From Ilumatobacteraceae bacterium (GTDB lineage Bacteria; Actinomycetota; Acidimicrobiia; Acidimicrobiales; Ilumatobacteraceae), in the NCBI GenBank assembly GCA_017859395.1, contig JAFMNE010000017.1:1-42986 (forward strand): a DNA stretch of 42,986 nt, read 5' to 3'. A model generated the notes under the pieces. The model saw nothing but the letters and a program-made list of their open reading frames with translations, did not search any database and had not been told where the DNA came from. A program made the translations under genes and the position numbers. Every line of letters starts with the position of its first letter. Position 1 is the first letter of the stretch. This document shows, piece by piece, positions 35,926 to 42,842 of this stretch.

Positions 35926-36729
35926 GTGACCCCTCCCAGCGACAACGGACATGCACCCACCGCGATGAGCGCCGACGCGGTGATGGAGGTGTTCGAACGT
36001 GCCGCCGATGCGGTAGCGGAGGTGCTGGCATCAACGAGTGATTGGGGGCCGTCGGGGCTGCGCCATAGCCAATATGCCTTTGATGTGACCGCTGATGATG
36101 CCTGCCGGGCGGTGCTGCATGGTGCGGGTTTGGCGGTGTTGAGCGAGGAGAGCGGTGTGACCGCCCCTGATGGGTCCACTGTGTCGGCCGACCGTCCGGT
36201 GGTGGTGGTCGACCCGGTGGACGGATCAACGAACGCGTCACGTCAGGTGCCGTGGTATGCAACGGCGTTGTGTCTGGTTGCCGATGGCGCGCCACAGGTC
36301 GCACTCGTCGCGAATCACGCGAGTGGCCATCGGTGGCGCGCGATTGCCGGTGGGGGAGCGACGCGTGACGGGGTGCCCATCTCGTCATCAGGGTGCGCCG
36401 AGATGCGCCGGGCGATTGTGGCGATGTCGGGGTTGCCATCACATCATTACGGCTGGGCGCAGTTCCGTGTGCTGGGTGCCTCGGCGCCTGACATGTGTCT
36501 GGTGGCTGACGGCACGCTCGACGCCTGGTGCGACATGAACAATGGGGGGCACGGTGTGTGGGACTACGCGGCGTCGGTACTGATCTGCACCGAGGCGGGT
36601 GCGGTGGTCGGTGAAGTGGAGGGCCGCGACCTGATTCATCTCGATCACACCGCGCGACGGTCACCAATGGTGGCAGCATCGGCGGATCTTCTGGAGGTGC
36701 TGGCCGAGCATCGTCGTCGGGGTCGCTGA
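35926..36729 (+). CDS. Inositol monophosphatase family protein
   Basis: 267 residues. Metal-dependent phosphatase fold: EESG (first metal Glu), DPVDGSTNASRQVPWYATAL (the DPxDGT motif, here DPVDGST) and GVWDYAASVLICTEAGAVV (the C-terminal WD motif). Targets of this family include inositol phosphates, fructose bisphosphate, histidinol phosphate and PAP; none can be picked. The GTG at 35926 is favoured by the promoter; the ATG at 35965 is possible. Its stop shares one base with the ATG of the glycosylase gene. Confidence 0.9.
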   Translation: MTPPSDNGHAPTAMSADAVMEVFERAADAVAEVLASTSDWGPSGLRHSQYAFDVTADDACRAVLHGAGLAVLSEESGVTAPDGSTVSADRPVVVVDPVDGSTNASRQVPWYATALCLVADGAPQVALVANHASGHRWRAIAGGGATRDGVPISSSGCAEMRRAIVAMSGLPSHHYGWAQFRVLGASAPDMCLVADGTLDAWCDMNNGGHGVWDYAASVLICTEAGAVVGEVEGRDLIHLDHTARRSPMVAASADLLEVLAEHRRRGR

Positions 36730-37538
36730 TGCCAGAAGGGCACACCATTCATCGGGCCGCTCGGTTGCAGCGCCGCCGTTTTGCTGGCGCGGTGCTGCAG
36801 GTCGACTCGCCGCAGGGCCGTTTCGACGCGGGTGCGCGCATGCTCGATGGCCGTGAACTGCTGGGGGTGGATGCTCTGGGGAAGCATCTGTTTCATCGCT
36901 GGGAGGGCGATGTGAGCGTGCATATCCATCTCGGCCTGTTCGGCAAGTTCAAGGTGTTTACCGATGTGGGTCGGGCGCCGGCACCCTCTGATGGGGTGCG
37001 GATGCGCTGGCGCGGGGATGTGGGGGTCATGTATCTGTCGGGGCCGACGGCATGCGAAATCATCGATCCCGATGCTGAGGAGGCGTTGCGCGCGCGCATT
37101 GGCCCCGATCCGCTTGCGGTGCGCAACGGCGACGCCGATCGGGTGGTGACAACGCTGGCGCGCCGGCGAGCACCGATCGCGCAGTTACTGCTCGACCAGG
37201 CCGTCGTGGCGGGTATCGGCAATGTGTATCGCGCCGAGTTCTGTTTTCTTGCCGGTATCGATCCGCGCCGACCCGCCAATGAGGTGTCGTCCGACGATGC
37301 GCTGGCACTGTGGGAGATGTCGATTCGTCTGATGACCATTGGTGAGCGCATCGGTCGCATCGTCACGGTGGACCCGGCAGAGGTGGGCGCGGCCAAACCG
37401 GGTGATCTCGTTCGTGGCGACCGGTTGTATGTATACAAACGGGCGGGTCAACCGTGTCGCCGGTGCGCGACACCGGTGCGGTCGGCGATGCTGGCCTCGC
37501 GTCGGGTGTGGTGGTGCCCGACGTGTCAGCCCGGCTGA
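36729..37538 (+). CDS. nei: Formamidopyrimidine-DNA glycosylase / endonuclease VIII family
   Basis: 269 residues. Begins MPEGHTIHRAA, so after Met removal Pro1 and Glu2 are the catalytic residues; the THR-rather-than-LPE form (EGHT) is that of Nei, and resembles actinobacterial Nei2. A Lys in LGKHLFH and the helix-two-turn-helix region VVAGIGNVYRAEFCF follow. The C-terminal zinc finger is complete, CRRC ... CPTC. It removes oxidised pyrimidines and cuts the strand. Start is coupled to the phosphatase gene by TGATG. Confidence 0.93.
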   Translation: MPEGHTIHRAARLQRRRFAGAVLQVDSPQGRFDAGARMLDGRELLGVDALGKHLFHRWEGDVSVHIHLGLFGKFKVFTDVGRAPAPSDGVRMRWRGDVGVMYLSGPTACEIIDPDAEEALRARIGPDPLAVRNGDADRVVTTLARRRAPIAQLLLDQAVVAGIGNVYRAEFCFLAGIDPRRPANEVSSDDALALWEMSIRLMTIGERIGRIVTVDPAEVGAAKPGDLVRGDRLYVYKRAGQPCRRCATPVRSAMLASRRVWWCPTCQPG

Positions 37539-37625
37539 CGCTGGCGTGCATCGACCACGTGCTTCATTGATGCCGTTGGGTGGCTCGGGTGTACATCTGC
37601 GTGTGGTGTGGTCAAGACTGAGCAC

Positions 37626-38183
37626 ATGGTCGACCCACGACCCGACGGTGCCAGCGGCGGTGATGCGCGCGCTGAGGGCCCAGTGGTGCTAGTGCGTCCC
37701 GCCCCCACGCTCACGCCGCGCGGTTTTGTTGGCCACCGGTATGAGCACACCTGGGTGATCAACCGTTCGCGTGATGTGGTGTGGGGCTGGTTGTGCGACC
37801 CGTCGACGTTCACCGATTCGCAGGTGTGGCCGTGGCGAGTGGAGTTCTTGAACGGCGCCGATGGCGAGACCGGGTTCATGACGGGCGTGTACAACGCCCA
37901 TGTGGGGCCATTCACGAATTTCTCGGGTGTGTTGGGTGAGATTCGCGACAAGGAGTACCGCGATCTGCAGTACTTCTACGGCAGTTTTGCGATTTCGCCG
38001 GCCTTGTTCCGCCCGACCCGTCTGCAATTCTGGTTGGACGACCACCCTGACGACCCGGGTGTGTCGGTCCTTCATCTGCGCCTCGATGCCGTGGTGCGTC
38101 GATCTGCGCGTGGGGTGTGGGGCTGGCTGATGCGCCGGTTCTGGGCGCGGTTCGGCCGGTGGTGTGAGCGCGCCACCCAATGA
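37626..38183 (+). CDS. SRPBCC (START-like) family protein, putative
   Basis: 185 residues from the ATG at 37626; a GTG at 37608 is an equally weak alternative, as neither has a ribosome site. After about 35 disordered residues comes HRYEHTWVINRSRDVVWGWLCDPSTFTDSQVWPWRVEFL, the opening of a polyketide cyclase/SRPBCC-type ligand-binding domain, followed by strands to LHLRLDAVVRRSARGVWGWLMRRFWARFGRW. Such domains bind hydrophobic ligands. The C-terminus is a basic aromatic helix that may touch the membrane. Function unknown. It runs towards the convergent VOC gene, 20 bases away. Confidence 0.7.
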   Translation: MVDPRPDGASGGDARAEGPVVLVRPAPTLTPRGFVGHRYEHTWVINRSRDVVWGWLCDPSTFTDSQVWPWRVEFLNGADGETGFMTGVYNAHVGPFTNFSGVLGEIRDKEYRDLQYFYGSFAISPALFRPTRLQFWLDDHPDDPGVSVLHLRLDAVVRRSARGVWGWLMRRFWARFGRWCERATQ

Positions 38184-38203
38184 CGGAGCCGTGACCGAGA
38201 TGG

Positions 38204-38578
38204 TCAGTCGCTGGCGAGTGGTCGCGCGATGCTCAAGTCGTGCCCGGCAGGGTCGTGAATAGGGAAGTAGCGCTCGCCCCATGAGGCATCAGATGGGGGA
38301 GCGTCCGGCGGCCATCCGGCAGCCACCATCTGATCGTGCAGCGCGTCGACATCGTCGACATGGATGATGGTGCGGCCCCATCCGGTGGCAACGTCGTTGG
38401 GGGCGGCAACGCGAATCAGGTTGATGTGTGGCCCGTCGGTGCTGGCTGACATGGTGGTGAAATCGCTCTCGGGGCCACCGAAACTGATGTGCAGGCCCAG
38501 AGCGGTGTAGAACCCCATGGACGCGGCCATGTCAGCGGTGGTGAGCGTGACGGCGTCGATGCGGTGTATGCCGGCCAT
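38204..38578 (-). CDS. VOC (glyoxalase/bleomycin-resistance) superfamily protein
   Basis: 124 residues from the ATG at 38578. One VOC unit: GIHRIDAVTLTTADMAASMGFYTALGLHISFGG, then GWGRTIIHVDDVDALHDQMVAAGW and ERYFPIHDPAGHDLSIARPL, with paired beta-alpha-beta-beta-beta modules. His in IHRID, and Asp/His-type metal residues in the second half, suggest a metal-dependent lyase or dioxygenase, or a binding protein. A longer form starting at a TTG (38620) would put its upstream region in a hairpin, so the ATG is preferred. Confidence 0.85.
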   Translation of the reverse strand: MAGIHRIDAVTLTTADMAASMGFYTALGLHISFGGPESDFTTMSASTDGPHINLIRVAAPNDVATGWGRTIIHVDDVDALHDQMVAAGWPPDAPPSDASWGERYFPIHDPAGHDLSIARPLASD

Positions 38579-38608
38579 GGGGTCAGTTTCGCCGACAGTG
38601 TCGTGTGG

Positions 38609-38627
38609 CGCCACCGTCAAGGTGGCG
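38609..38627. terminator. Possible terminator after the VTC gene
   Basis: A seven-pair stem CGCCACC-GTCAA-GGTGGCG lies 24 bases beyond the stop of the minus-strand VTC gene and before the VOC gene. No T-run; terminator role inferred. Confidence 0.35.
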
Positions 38628-38650: not shown

Positions 38651-39427
38651 TCACTGCGGTGTGTCGTGCCGTCGAAGGTGTCGAACAGCGTCGCGTGCAG
38701 GGAGGTAACACGGATATCTGTTGGCGGCGATGGCGGCGCAATATTTGGAGTAGGACTGCGGCCGGTTGCCGTGTCGAAGAAGTAACTCTGTGGTGGGCCC
38801 ACGATGCTCAGGTGATTTCACTTCGATGACGGCGGCGTCGGGAAGAAGCGATGTTGCCTCCTGTTGGCCGGTGGTGGTGACGTCGGTATCGATTGTGATG
38901 CGTTCGCCGCGCGACGGCGCCACAAGCGTGATGCGCTGATAACTGAGAAATGTCGTGGTTCGCGGATGGGCATGATGGGGGACGAGGCCGTGACGATCGA
39001 GATGGGTGACGACCCATGCGTACTCGGCATCGTTGAGAGTGGCGGTGTGGTTGTCGCGGACTCGGCGTTCTTTGATCGTGCGGCCGCGGCCGCTGCGGAC
39101 CTTGAGTTCCAACTGGGTGTTGGCGGATGCCTGATACTGCCGCGATCGAATCTTGAAACGTCGATGACGTCGTTGAACATGATGGCGAAATGACATCAAG
39201 TCATGGTCGAAATAGATGTTGGAGTACACAAACATGCTGTCGGCGCCGATGGTGAGTTGGCTCCACAGTCCGGTTACGCGAAGATCGTCAAGGATGGGGC
39301 GAAGCGCATGGCGAGCGATGACGTATTTCGTATCGACACGGTTGCGTAGCGCCGCCACAGCGTCCATCGTGTCGAGGTCAATCGGGGCGAAATGGCCTGC
39401 GGGAACGATCGGTGAGTCGACCATCAC
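38651..39427 (-). CDS. VTC-domain polyphosphate polymerase-like protein
   Basis: 258 residues, GTG start overlapping the DUF4956 stop by four bases (an ATG follows directly). The tunnel-shaped VTC fold is shown by its charged motifs in order: R30 and K34 (RVDTKY), Y72, R94 and R96 (KIRSRQY), E107 and K109 (LELKVR), R165 (SYQRI), R176 (ERITID), E202 and K204 (IEVKS) and K228 (SYSKYC). These correspond to the ATP- and phosphate-binding residues of yeast Vtc4, the polyphosphate polymerase; none appears missing. Soluble, so membrane attachment would come from DUF4956. Polymerase activity is inferred. Lower GC than neighbours. Confidence 0.9.
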   Translation of the reverse strand: MMVDSPIVPAGHFAPIDLDTMDAVAALRNRVDTKYVIARHALRPILDDLRVTGLWSQLTIGADSMFVYSNIYFDHDLMSFRHHVQRRHRRFKIRSRQYQASANTQLELKVRSGRGRTIKERRVRDNHTATLNDAEYAWVVTHLDRHGLVPHHAHPRTTTFLSYQRITLVAPSRGERITIDTDVTTTGQQEATSLLPDAAVIEVKSPEHRGPTTELLLRHGNRPQSYSKYCAAIAANRYPCYLPARDAVRHLRRHDTPQ

Positions 39428-40020
39428 GGTGGGGTAGTTGAGTCGGGTTGCTGGCGTGCCACGGTCACCTCAAGGCGCATTGTGTCGCGTGCGAAGTCGA
39501 TGTTGCGTACGTGCACGTCACGCACAGCGGCGCCAAGACGTTCGCTGATGTGAGCCACAAGGGCGGTGTCGTCGGTGATAACCCGGTCAAGCTCGACGCG
39601 TGTGGTGACCCACCGGTGGCTGGGGTGATGGCCGCCGCCAGCGTCGATCAGCAACATGACGCCGACGAGGATCGCCGCGAAGGTGCATTTCACACCGAAG
39701 TCCATACCTGAAAGCCCGCTCATCAAACCGAGGACGAGCGACACCATCGTGTACCCAATTTCAACTTGTCCGGATTCGTTGGATCTCAGCCGGACGATGG
39801 ACAGCACGGCGAAGAGGCCGAAGCCGACCCCGATGTTGAGCGGAGCGGACGTGCCAAGTGCGGCGGCGACGGTGAACAAGCTGATGTTGAACGCCACATA
39901 CCCAATGACTTGGTCCCAGCGGCGATGACGGCGGTAGTAGCCAACGAAGACGAGAATGCTGAGCGCAGCAAGGTTCATCGCCAGGTCACGCACGAGTTCG
40001 GCGATATCGAGTTGTGCCAC
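39424..40020 (-). CDS. DUF4956 membrane protein
   Basis: 198 residues from a GTG with a GGAGG site six bases upstream. Four to five hydrophobic segments (about 11-28, 39-57, 62-76, 88-104, 110-126) precede a soluble C-terminal domain (about 135-190) with strands (RVELDRVITDD, VRDVHVRNIDF, MRLEVTVARQ) similar to a small ferredoxin-like fold. The GFGLFAVLSIVRLRSNE stretch is the family hallmark. DUF4956 proteins are known as frequent partners of VTC-domain proteins and may hold the polymerase at the membrane or pass product; the biochemical role is not established. First gene of a two-gene operon. Confidence 0.88.
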   Translation of the reverse strand: MAQLDIAELVRDLAMNLAALSILVFVGYYRRHRRWDQVIGYVAFNISLFTVAAALGTSAPLNIGVGFGLFAVLSIVRLRSNESGQVEIGYTMVSLVLGLMSGLSGMDFGVKCTFAAILVGVMLLIDAGGGHHPSHRWVTTRVELDRVITDDTALVAHISERLGAAVRDVHVRNIDFARDTMRLEVTVARQQPDSTTPP

Positions 40021-40065
40021 GGCAACCTCCGTCGGTGATCGGGTCGGACCGCCCTGTGGTGGGGC

Positions 40066-40075
40066 AACCTACACT
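40066..40075. promoter_or_regulatory. Symmetric bidirectional -10 element of the VTC/CotH module
   Basis: The ten bases AACCTACACT hold a plus-strand TACACT (40070-40075), seven bases before the CotH ATG at 40083, and a minus-strand TAGGTT (40071-40066). The boxes share the central TA, exactly as at 35908. Rightward transcription would be leaderless; leftward would have about 38 nt of leader with GGAGG. Confidence 0.55.
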
Positions 40076-40082
40076 TTGGGCG

Positions 40083-42842
40083 ATGTCTGGTGATGTGATC
40101 TCACCAGCGGCGTTGGCTCGTCGGCTGGCTGTCGGGCTGTTGATGGTGGTGGGTGCGGCATGTTCCGCGTCGGGTACGTCAAATCGCGCCGGAACATTGT
40201 CGGTTGACATGGTGCCGTCGGGTGATGACGCGCCAGTGGCCACGACGACGAGTGCCGCGGAGCTTCCTGTTGTTGAGGTTGTCCGCCTCAATGAGGTGCA
40301 TTACCACCCACCTCGCGATGCTGATCCGTTGGAGTTCGTCGAGGTGGTGAATCTGGGTGGCCAGCGTGTCAACCTTCAGGATTGGTGCATTGATGGAACC
40401 GGGTTCTGCTGGGAGGCGGTGACTCTTCTTGAACCTGGCGAGGCCGCCGTCGTCACGTTCAGCGCTGATGACTGGCGGTTATCGAATGGCGGCGAGACGG
40501 TGGCGCTCGTGGATGCGCTCGGTCAGCGTGTCGATGAGGTGACCTATTCCGATGATGGGGCATGGCCCACGGTTGCCGACGGTGGCGGCGCATCGCTGCA
40601 TCGTGTGAGCGCTGGCACAGATGTGGGGTCGTGGCAGGCGGCGCTGCCAACCCCGGGTGTTGTGGCCGCAGGTGAGGGTGCGGTGGTCGTCGGTGATGTT
40701 GTGGTGACCGAGTTGTATTACCACGCTGTTGATGACGACCCGGCTGCGGCGTTCATTGAGGTGACGAATGTGTCGGCAGCGGCGGTTGACCTTCAAGGTT
40801 GGTGCGTGGTGGGAACACCAGCGTGTTGGGATGAGCCGACTGTGCTCGGCCGGGGTGAGGCGTTCAGCACCGATGGGTGGTTCGCCAACGGCGGGTTGTC
40901 CCGTTCGGGCGAGCGGTTACACCTGATGGATACCGCGGGCCGAATCCACGACACCGTTGTATACGAGGATCATGGCGACTGGCCTGCGCTGGCCGACGGG
41001 TATGGGTGGTCGCTATCCCGGCGTGATGTGACCGAATCGGGAGTCCTGGCAGGTAACTGGGATGCGGCTGTGCCAACGCCGGGGGTGTACGACGACACTG
41101 TCGCTGGCTCGGTCCGGCCGTTGTTCAGCGATATCGACTTCACCCCCTCGCCGTTGCCGGGTGACGAGTTAGCGATCACCGCAGCTGTGTCGGGTCTTGA
41201 CGAGGTGCAGGTTCACTACCGCATCGATTTCGGCGATGAGGTTGTTCTGCCAGCTAACTACGACGGTGAGCGTGTTGACGTGACCTTGCCGGCAGCTGAC
41301 GCTGGGGCGCTCATCCGGTTCCGGTTCGTTGGGGTCGCTGCGGGGGAGGAGCTTGCTCAGTGGCCACGGTTGGGCAATGGCCAGGTGTATGGCGGCACGG
41401 TCGTGGCTGATCTTGATGCCGATGCGACTGCGCTTCCACGGTTGCAACTGTTCGCCGAGGACGAGGTGTGGCAGGAAGCGCGGCGGAATACGCGCCTGCA
41501 TGGAAACGAGGGTTATCCGGTGGTGCTCGCTTTTGATGGCGAGATCATCGACAACTCGCTCATTCGAATTAAGGGGAATCAGGCGCGGTCGAACACGAAG
41601 AAAAAGTGGAAGGTGATGCTGCCGGCCGGGCAGCACTGGGAAGCTGGCGGTCTGCTCCGGGCACCGGTCGATCAGTTTGATCTGCTGCCCGCGGCCACCG
41701 ACAAGTCGTTTTCCCGCGAGATCTTGGTGTCGGACATGCAAGAAATGGCGGGCGGCTTGTCGCAGCAGGTTCTGCCGATGAGGGTTGAGGTCAACAACGA
41801 GTTCTTTGGGCTTTACATGTATGGCGAATCACCTGATGGTGATTGGCGTGACCTCATGGGGTTCAGCGATGAGGTGTATGTCTGGAAAGCAGAGATGTTG
41901 AGTTTTCTGCGCTCTCGCGACCTTGATCTCGATGCCGATACGTTTGCCCGGCATTACGAGCGGATCACGAAGGGCTGGAGAGATGACAACGATGAGCTTC
42001 TTCGCTCGTTGATCGACACGCTTGACACCTTGCAAGACCATGAGCTGGAAGAGTGGGTGTTTGCCAATATTGATGTGCCGCAGGTGGTGAACAGCCTCGC
42101 GGCAATGAGGATCGTTCAGCACAGCGAGTGGCAGCACAAGAACTATTTCGTGGCGTTTGACCCTCAAGATGGTCGGTGGCGGCTCATTCCGATTGATTTC
42201 GATTTGACGTTCGGTCGGTACTACGCCAGCCCCTGTAACGCCCGCTGCGACACGATCACGGCGTGGCCGTATCTGGATTATCCCGATGGCAATCGGCTTG
42301 CGCGTGCACTGTTGCGTAACGAGATGTTCCGGTCACTTGTTGATCGTCGAACGAGGGAACTGGCCGAGGTGTATCTGGCACCCGGGGTGCTGGAGCAGCG
42401 ACTCGCTGAACTGCTCGATGTGATGGGTGATGACGCAGCTGATGATCGTGCACGCTGGTCGGTGTATGGGGAGCAGCAGAGCATGGGCCGCGCGCAAGAG
42501 TTGATGACCCGGTATTTCATTGAGCCCAAGCGTGAGATGTATCTCGGGGAGAACTCGAGGCTTCCCGATCCGCAGCCTGTGTCACCTGCGGTCAGCGTTA
42601 ACGAGGTCGTCACCGACGATGCCGGGCAGGTGTTGCAGGCCACTCTTGTCAATCAGGAATCGGTTGCGGTGGACATGTCGGGACGCGTCATGCCTGAGAT
42701 TGATGCGGTACTCCCAGCTGGCTTGGTTCTGCCGGCAGGGGGTTCGTGCGTGGTCGTGTTCGAACGGGTGCCGGTGACGGCGTCGCAGGTTGGCGAGTTC
42801 GTGGTGATGGCCCACCGAGTGGTTGATGCCGATGAGGATTGA
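40083..42842 (+). CDS. Lipoprotein with lamin-tail-like domains and a CotH kinase domain
   Basis: 919 residues from the ATG at 40083, supported by the -10 box and by the signal: LARRLAVGLLMVVGAAC, lipobox Cys27. Residues about 62-192 and 204-335 are two lamin-tail-like domains (LNEVHYHPP ... EFVEVVN; VTELYYHAV ... FIEVTN), each with a Cys pair (C102/C109, C241/C248). After a beta domain (about 345-435) comes a CotH kinase domain (about 455-800): R495-I-K-G-N-Q ... K506-K-K-W-K, H685-K-N687 and the D705-F-D-L-T-F-G711 catalytic Asp motif. A third lamin-tail-like piece ends the protein (852-918). Bacillus CotH is an atypical protein kinase; kinase activity here is inferred. GC is low. Confidence 0.9.
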   Translation: MSGDVISPAALARRLAVGLLMVVGAACSASGTSNRAGTLSVDMVPSGDDAPVATTTSAAELPVVEVVRLNEVHYHPPRDADPLEFVEVVNLGGQRVNLQDWCIDGTGFCWEAVTLLEPGEAAVVTFSADDWRLSNGGETVALVDALGQRVDEVTYSDDGAWPTVADGGGASLHRVSAGTDVGSWQAALPTPGVVAAGEGAVVVGDVVVTELYYHAVDDDPAAAFIEVTNVSAAAVDLQGWCVVGTPACWDEPTVLGRGEAFSTDGWFANGGLSRSGERLHLMDTAGRIHDTVVYEDHGDWPALADGYGWSLSRRDVTESGVLAGNWDAAVPTPGVYDDTVAGSVRPLFSDIDFTPSPLPGDELAITAAVSGLDEVQVHYRIDFGDEVVLPANYDGERVDVTLPAADAGALIRFRFVGVAAGEELAQWPRLGNGQVYGGTVVADLDADATALPRLQLFAEDEVWQEARRNTRLHGNEGYPVVLAFDGEIIDNSLIRIKGNQARSNTKKKWKVMLPAGQHWEAGGLLRAPVDQFDLLPAATDKSFSREILVSDMQEMAGGLSQQVLPMRVEVNNEFFGLYMYGESPDGDWRDLMGFSDEVYVWKAEMLSFLRSRDLDLDADTFARHYERITKGWRDDNDELLRSLIDTLDTLQDHELEEWVFANIDVPQVVNSLAAMRIVQHSEWQHKNYFVAFDPQDGRWRLIPIDFDLTFGRYYASPCNARCDTITAWPYLDYPDGNRLARALLRNEMFRSLVDRRTRELAEVYLAPGVLEQRLAELLDVMGDDAADDRARWSVYGEQQSMGRAQELMTRYFIEPKREMYLGENSRLPDPQPVSPAVSVNEVVTDDAGQVLQATLVNQESVAVDMSGRVMPEIDAVLPAGLVLPAGGSCVVVFERVPVTASQVGEFVVMAHRVVDADED

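Follow-up and report, generated by a model that had tools for sequence, protein, structure and literature searches.

The locus described here lies at positions 38651–42842 of a 42,986-nucleotide contig from an Ilumatobacteraceae bacterium (assembly GCA_017859395.1, contig JAFMNE010000017.1; this whole stretch is the window) and encodes a VTC-domain protein, a DUF4956 membrane protein and a CotH-family protein. Within the source phylum, these three families are linked far beyond chance, with CotH as an optional partner of the VTC–DUF4956 pair. Our preferred reading, to which we give a probability of roughly 0.4, is that VTC and DUF4956 form one membrane-coupled polyphosphate (polyP) synthase that directs its product outward to a lineage-specific surface partner. 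VTC would make polyP from ATP at the cytosolic face, and DUF4956 would dock or gate VTC and let the chain pass outward. At the outer surface a partner would handle the polyP: here a CotH lipoprotein with lamin-tail (LTD) domains, elsewhere a lipoprotein of the Cthe_2159 family or a phytase-like protein. We infer the synthesis, export and use of polyP as well as the role of DUF4956; for export we draw on the absence of a second domain from the VTC protein, the coupling of synthesis to translocation in yeast, the extracytoplasmic-looking partners and the phosphate-related neighbours. The features of the locus are:

38651..39427, minus strand: VTC-domain (Vtc4-like) putative polyphosphate polymerase, 258 aa (PF09359, profile match to Vtc4, ligand residues)
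39424..40020, minus strand: DUF4956 polytopic membrane protein, 198 aa (PF16316, conserved residues, structure model)
40021..40082, no strand: divergent intergenic region, 62 bp (coordinates of the open reading frames)
40083..42842, plus strand: CotH-family protein, 919 aa, with a signal-like N-terminus and Cys, a probable lipoprotein (Pfam, Foldseek, N-terminus)
40281..40550, plus strand: best-scoring lamin-tail (LTD) stretch, residues 67–156 (PF00932)
41562..42506, plus strand: CotH kinase domain, residues 494–808 (Pfam, structure model)
42126..42128, plus strand: Glu682 codon, corresponding to catalytic Asp228 in B. subtilis CotH (alignments)
42195..42197, plus strand: Asp705 codon, corresponding to Asp251 in B. 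subtilis CotH (alignments)

The open reading frames bear out the three adjacent genes of the initial annotation. Those of VTC and DUF4956 overlap by 4 nt on the minus strand, and the CotH gene is divergent from them, with 62 bp separating the opposing starts; this gap is set by our choice of ATG 40083 as the CotH start, judged likelier than GTG 40014. Each family has a single match in the source genome (2.25 Mb, 95 contigs, 95% complete). The arrangement is hardly an assembly accident, since a separately deposited assembly (L088), whose DUF4956 is 96–97% identical, repeats both the gene arrangement and, nearly identically, the divergent gap.

The linkage emerged from profile searches for the three families in a single draw from the phylum, comprising 198 genomes. 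VTC and DUF4956 occur in an identical set of 20 genomes from eight families (Fisher p 8e-28, inflated by relatedness), and their domain matches lie 102–360 bp apart in 21 of 21 pairs. CotH was found in 17 genomes, 16 of them within the 20 (Fisher p 6e-19 against VTC, again inflated by relatedness). Its match lies 57–1645 bp from the pair in 14 of these 16 genomes and on a separate short contig in the other two (G108, G147). In the four CotH-less genomes, all of family f27, a Cthe_2159 match (PF14262) adjoins DUF4956 on the same strand, and all four Cthe_2159 proteins have a lipobox-like Cys. PF14262 is present in 7 of the 20 genomes and in 1 of the remaining 178 (8 of 198 in all); it lies elsewhere in the genome in G031 and G113 and flanks the pair on both sides in G186. 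All 20 genomes hence carry CotH (16) or a Cthe_2159-family protein (7), three of them both. Cthe_2159 itself binds polygalacturonate and calcium. The initial expectation that the three families co-occur beyond chance is borne out by these counts. Among 14 control genomes, VTC and DUF4956 share the same three (Bacteroides ihuae, C. glutamicum and M. acetivorans), CotH is found in C. glutamicum, M. acetivorans and B. subtilis, and Cthe_2159 solely in B. ihuae. The alignments of DUF4956 (A1) and VTC (A2) comprise 20 of the 21 pairs; the omitted one (G099, C1:191830-193102) has one stop in each of the two frames, next to an open CotH match.

A scan of named genomes (the best 80 of 555 loci, biased to close relatives, from Actinomycetota and Chloroflexota) places a same-strand VTC next to DUF4956 in 77 of the 80 loci, with domain gaps of –3 to 339 bp. 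CotH is nearby in 13 and a Cthe_2159-cluster protein in 15 (3 checked with Pfam, the remainder assigned by clustering), at least one of the two in 27. The nearest named relatives include metagenome-assembled genomes (MAGs) of Ilumatobacteraceae and Acidimicrobiaceae. Fusions of VTC, DUF4956 and CotH, for which the initial annotation had proposed a search, are absent as single reading frames from the 80 loci. In Streptomyces loci L120 and L140 the VTC-less DUF4956 adjoins a gene whose sequence cluster has a class-III aminotransferase as its tested member.

The window VTC protein matches PF09359 with 76.3 bits against a curated cut-off of 23; this is its sole Pfam domain, and a Pfam search found no SPX domain. 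Its profile aligns with the yeast Vtc4 structure 3g3q at E 1.8e-23, placing Vtc4 K200, R264, R266, K281 and K294 at window K34, R94, R96, K109 and K119, and R361, R373, E426, K428 and K458 at R165, R176, E202, K204 and K228. Among these we take K200, K281, K294, R361, R373 and K458 to be substrate ligands. The initial claim that all charged Vtc4 ligands are kept thus stands for K200 through E426, K428 and K458, but not for K455, which is not kept in the profile alignment as judged by eye. The mapped positions are invariant in 20 of 20 rows of A2, and in the 77 named loci the set is retained in every readable row, the K200 position excepted. Yeast Vtc4 carrying R264A/R266A/E426N yields a catalytically impaired complex (PMC9911596); the equivalents of these residues are retained in 77, 77 and 76 (one gap) of the 77 named-locus proteins. 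In the yeast complex, which contains the tunnel domain, a membrane channel is coupled to synthesis, and synthesis to translocation (PMC9911596). Judging by its retained ligand residues, the window VTC would likewise make polyP from ATP.

Bacterial polyP is usually regarded as a cytosolic product of PPK enzymes. We considered VTC as a stand-in for a missing PPK1 and rejected this, because the source genome encodes a separate PPK1 of its own, and the enzyme is also encoded in 16 of the 20 VTC/DUF4956 genomes. The frequency of PPK1 in these 20 does not differ significantly from that in the others (100 of 178; p 0.054).

The window DUF4956 protein (PF16316, 145.3 bits) is polytopic, in agreement with the initial annotation: its model combines five predicted helices with a C-terminal beta-alpha-beta-beta domain (mean predicted local distance difference test score, pLDDT, 77; predicted template modelling score, pTM, 0.60). 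N45, L73, S74, R77, R79 and S80 do not vary among the 77 named loci carrying both genes; in the more diverse alignment A1 (20 rows), the invariant residues are just Y28, R77 and R79. A comparison with PDB sequences gave no significant match, Vtc1 included, and the ACT-like entries among the fold matches are weak, with E above 0.001.

The profile comparisons bear on a different role for this protein. The polyP made by VTC could stay in the cytosol, with DUF4956 acting as an MgtC/SapB-like regulator whose ACT-type domain senses a ligand or the state of the membrane and turns VTC on in response; nothing would be exported, and CotH would only be co-regulated. We regard this as unlikely, yet the MgtC-like signal makes it a serious rival. 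The wider DUF4956 profile (A1) aligns with an MgtC/SapB profile (A7) along its later transmembrane helices and C-terminal domain, with an hhalign probability of 90.6, whereas three unrelated membrane proteins reach 0.1–0.3, a lenient control because these are single sequences. Of the 80 named loci, 36 contain, within 5 kb, members of a cluster whose tested representatives (L110, L124) are histidine kinases or response regulators, and the authors of a study on S. intermedius also describe SIR_1592 as MgtC-like with an ACT domain (PMC12345266). However, the hhalign value is 39.7 for a narrower profile from a closer set (A5) and 2.1 for the single sequence YhiD, and the Pfam MgtC family is not among the matches of the window protein up to E 1. 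PPK1 is already present in 16 of the 20 genomes, and a purely cytosolic role leaves the CotH or Cthe_2159 proteins of all 20, extracytoplasmic-looking where readable, unexplained.

Two-component genes also adjoin the pair in L076, outside the 36-locus set. In two Thermomicrobiales MAGs (L124, 6123–9843; L158, 6186–9282), CotH is followed, in its own orientation and divergently from DUF4956–VTC, by two-component-cluster genes; one of those in L124 was confirmed by Pfam as a histidine kinase.

Nine annotated regions in other phyla, whose gene tables are incomplete, extend the range of partners. The order DUF4956–VTC–phytase-like forms an apparent operon on plasmids of two Aminobacter and one Shinella (L169–L171), and on Nitratireductor plasmid L173 a PHO4 phosphate transporter sits between VTC and the phytase-like gene; a phytase-like protein is encoded in all four alphaproteobacterial loci read. 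On Pseudoalteromonas plasmid L172 (4303–6681), an LTD-like protein (31.3 bits, under the cut-off of 34.3), a C-terminal VTC remnant, DUF4956 and a phosphate-selective porin O/P stand in a row. Deinococcus taeanensis (L183) has the order CotH–VTC–DUF4956. With more reserve than for the locus itself, we propose that such a vectorial polyP synthase may be widespread. Soluble VTC and DUF4956 would constitute a minimal two-protein counterpart of the eukaryotic VTC complex and bring polyP to the cell surface, and interchangeable outer modules (CotH-like, Cthe_2159-like, phytase-like) would anchor, attach or recycle it there.

Other neighbourhoods direct attention to surface polysaccharides, which the module might decorate or regulate, VTC–DUF4956 supplying phosphate or polyP and CotH or Cthe_2159 serving as the polymer-side protein. 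In Pseudobutyrivibrio and Planococcus the trio lies within glycosyltransferase clusters, and PF14262 is named as a carbohydrate-binding domain. Pel loci of Gram-positive bacteria contain a VTC/DUF4956/CotH cassette (PMC7112168). In S. intermedius, deletions of SIR_1592 (DUF4956-like) and SIR_1594 (CotH) altered the Pel level and lowered aggregation (PMC12345266); these deletions are the only functional study of the bacterial pair among the top matches of our searches of the open-access literature, most subscription work lying outside it. We nevertheless consider this explanation improbable for our locus. PelG is absent from the source genome and from all 20 VTC/DUF4956 genomes, and was detected in 5 of the 198 (2 above cut-off). 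No polysaccharide synthase is found among the scanned neighbours of the trio (35926–38620, the genes to which annotation was restricted), and neither a synthase nor a Pel-named gene is annotated within ~6 kb in Deinococcus L183, where PelG itself was not searched. A Pel accessory cassette was rejected for the source genome, given the absence of PelG there and in all 20. The S. intermedius authors state that they failed to find the three genes syntenic outside the Pel locus (PMC12345266). Our co-occurrence counts go against this remark for the present phylum, although their genome set and intended gene order may differ. VTC and CotH genes have also been described in one C. perfringens locus (PMC2879425).

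Several observations weigh against a membrane-coupled synthase with an outward product. DUF4956 has zero PDB fold matches at E <= 0.001, and because it resembles MgtC/SapB, read as a regulator by others, rather than Vtc1, its role could be regulatory and not that of a channel. In addition, no recognised VTC accompanies DUF4956 in L096, L120, L140 or the Hymenobacter region. In the latter DUF4956 adjoins a TolC-family gene, and neither VTC nor CotH is annotated within ~6 kb in the incomplete gene table. In Pseudoalteromonas it is accompanied by a mere VTC remnant. Neither CotH nor Cthe_2159 is nearby in 53 of the 80 named loci; when 50 of these genomes were searched (L094, L114 and L118 were left out), CotH was absent from 42 and Cthe_2159 from all 50. 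VTC is present in 48 of these 50 loci (L120 and L140 being without it), and in 7 the sequence on one side of DUF4956 is shorter than 5 kb, where a local partner could be missed. An outer partner of the CotH or Cthe_2159 kind is therefore not obligatory, and CotH is optional because the pair occurs with other partners as well as in the 42 searched genomes that lack it. For S. intermedius, the deletions reported in the section consulted to alter the Pel level or aggregation include those of both neighbours of the VTC homologue SIR_1593 but not that of SIR_1593 itself (PMC12345266). In the named-locus VTC proteins, the K200 position holds Lys in 54, Ser in 21 and Val in 1, and is unreadable in 1. 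The 22 of 76 readable proteins with Ser or Val (L095, L101, L102 and 19 more) all come from Streptomyces loci without a nearby CotH or Cthe_2159. The change is found in 0 of 25 loci with such a partner nearby vs 22 of 51 without (Fisher p 2.7e-5), an association that may reflect shared ancestry because all 22 are Streptomyces.

The same 22 proteins without the K200 lysine could be taken to mean that the VTC-like domain is another triphosphate tunnel enzyme and the cluster unrelated to polyP, all the more as our searches of the open-access literature showed no assay of a bacterial VTC protein. Set against the strength of the Vtc4 match and the retention of the remaining ligands, this is very improbable. 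Streptomyces carminius L151, which bears two CotH genes, has Lys at the K200 position.

The window CotH protein scores 113.9 bits in Pfam against a cut-off of 23.8, and the lamin-tail-like domains noticed initially were recovered as two LTD stretches (PF00932). In a Foldseek comparison, the model of its kinase domain (mean pLDDT 70.7) matched B. cereus CotH 5jd9 with an E of 1.8e-12. The motif set, initially called complete, is not: Glu682, which phmmer pairs with an Asp of 5jd9, occupies the position of the catalytic Asp (B. subtilis D228). The second active-site Asp (D251) is kept as D705, and the 23-residue spacing of Glu682 and D705 equals that of D228 and D251. Across 32 aligned CotH domains (L093, with a fragmentary frame, is omitted), the catalytic position is Asp in 24, Glu in 7 and Ile in 1. 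The Glu bearers are the window protein, G188 and L088–L092; a sequencing error does not account for the change, as the relatives that share it are at 60–64% identity to the window protein. In B. subtilis CotH, D228Q abolishes activity (PMC7821199). Owing to the Glu, the window CotH is less likely to be an ordinary protein kinase than a protein that binds or anchors a surface acceptor or polymer, or modifies it. The assignment as a lipoprotein is in keeping with a Cys after the signal-like stretch in the window protein and its relatives (by eye), but the window lipobox, GAAC, is non-canonical. A hydrophobic N-terminal stretch is present in 13 of the 15 CotH frames adjoining a pair; the N-terminus of the other 2 is unreadable.

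These features also bear on the idea, put forward in the initial annotation, that polyP passes outward to CotH and serves it as phosphate donor. A membrane-coupled, outward-directed system fits the anatomy of the locus, whereas the donor step has been weakened. An exported donor would allow a CotH kinase to act on surface acceptors where ATP is scarce, and the idea draws on how closely CotH is linked to the pair (in 16 of 17 CotH genomes), on the CotH fold and on the retained second Asp. Yet the catalytic Asp is Glu in the window protein and six relatives, a Cthe_2159-family protein replaces CotH in four genomes, phytase-like proteins accompany the pair elsewhere, and CotH is missing from 42 of the 50 further genomes. 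Moreover, the B. cereus CotH structure 5jda is titled with Mg2+/AMP, which suggests a nucleotide as the ligand of that enzyme. We hold it quite improbable that polyP is the donor; it is the weakest step of the scheme and one that we do not favour.

In the surroundings of the trio, the genes scanned (35926–38620) encode inositol-monophosphatase-like, Fpg/Nei-like and glyoxalase-like proteins by Pfam and one protein with no match; the glyoxalase-family gene (38204–38620) shares the strand of VTC and is separated from its downstream end by 30 bp or more. An NCBIfam search gave zero matches above cut-off. The shared promoter initially proposed for the three genes could not be shown: a scan of 39900–40250, which covers the sigma-70 type and leaves other promoter types outside, returned zero matches. 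A phage origin was considered and rejected, the window DUF4956 having no match in 50,697 phage records at E 1e-3.

If the VTC–DUF4956 pair makes and exports polyP, it would provide a route for surface polyP and a function for DUF4956. It would also supply a testable reason for the presence of CotH proteins in organisms not known as spore formers. The exchange of partners makes the pair the first experimental target and CotH the second.

When comparing the locus with known systems, the wider DUF4956 profile is co-linearly similar to that of MgtC/SapB in the later transmembrane helices and C-terminal domain; however, DUF4956 has no Pfam MgtC match and its conserved residues are others (LSIxRLRS). 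The Bacillus spore-coat kinase CotH (5jd9/5jda) resembles the window CotH in its fold and second active-site Asp, whereas the window protein has Glu682 in place of Asp228, LTD domains and a probable lipid anchor. The Pel-locus cassette cotH-PPP-DUF4956(-DUF4832) (PMC7112168; SIR_1592-1594, PMC12345266) consists of the same three adjoining families. The source genome differs in lacking PelG and in its CotH, which is divergent, bears LTD domains and has Glu for the catalytic Asp. The bacterial polymerase also departs from the yeast VTC complex (Vtc1/Vtc3/Vtc4): its VTC domain stands alone, without SPX, and in our searches neither Vtc1 nor any other PDB chain was significantly matched by DUF4956. 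With this complex, the locus nevertheless has in common a catalytic tunnel domain with the same charged ligands and a membrane component that accompanies the polymerase.

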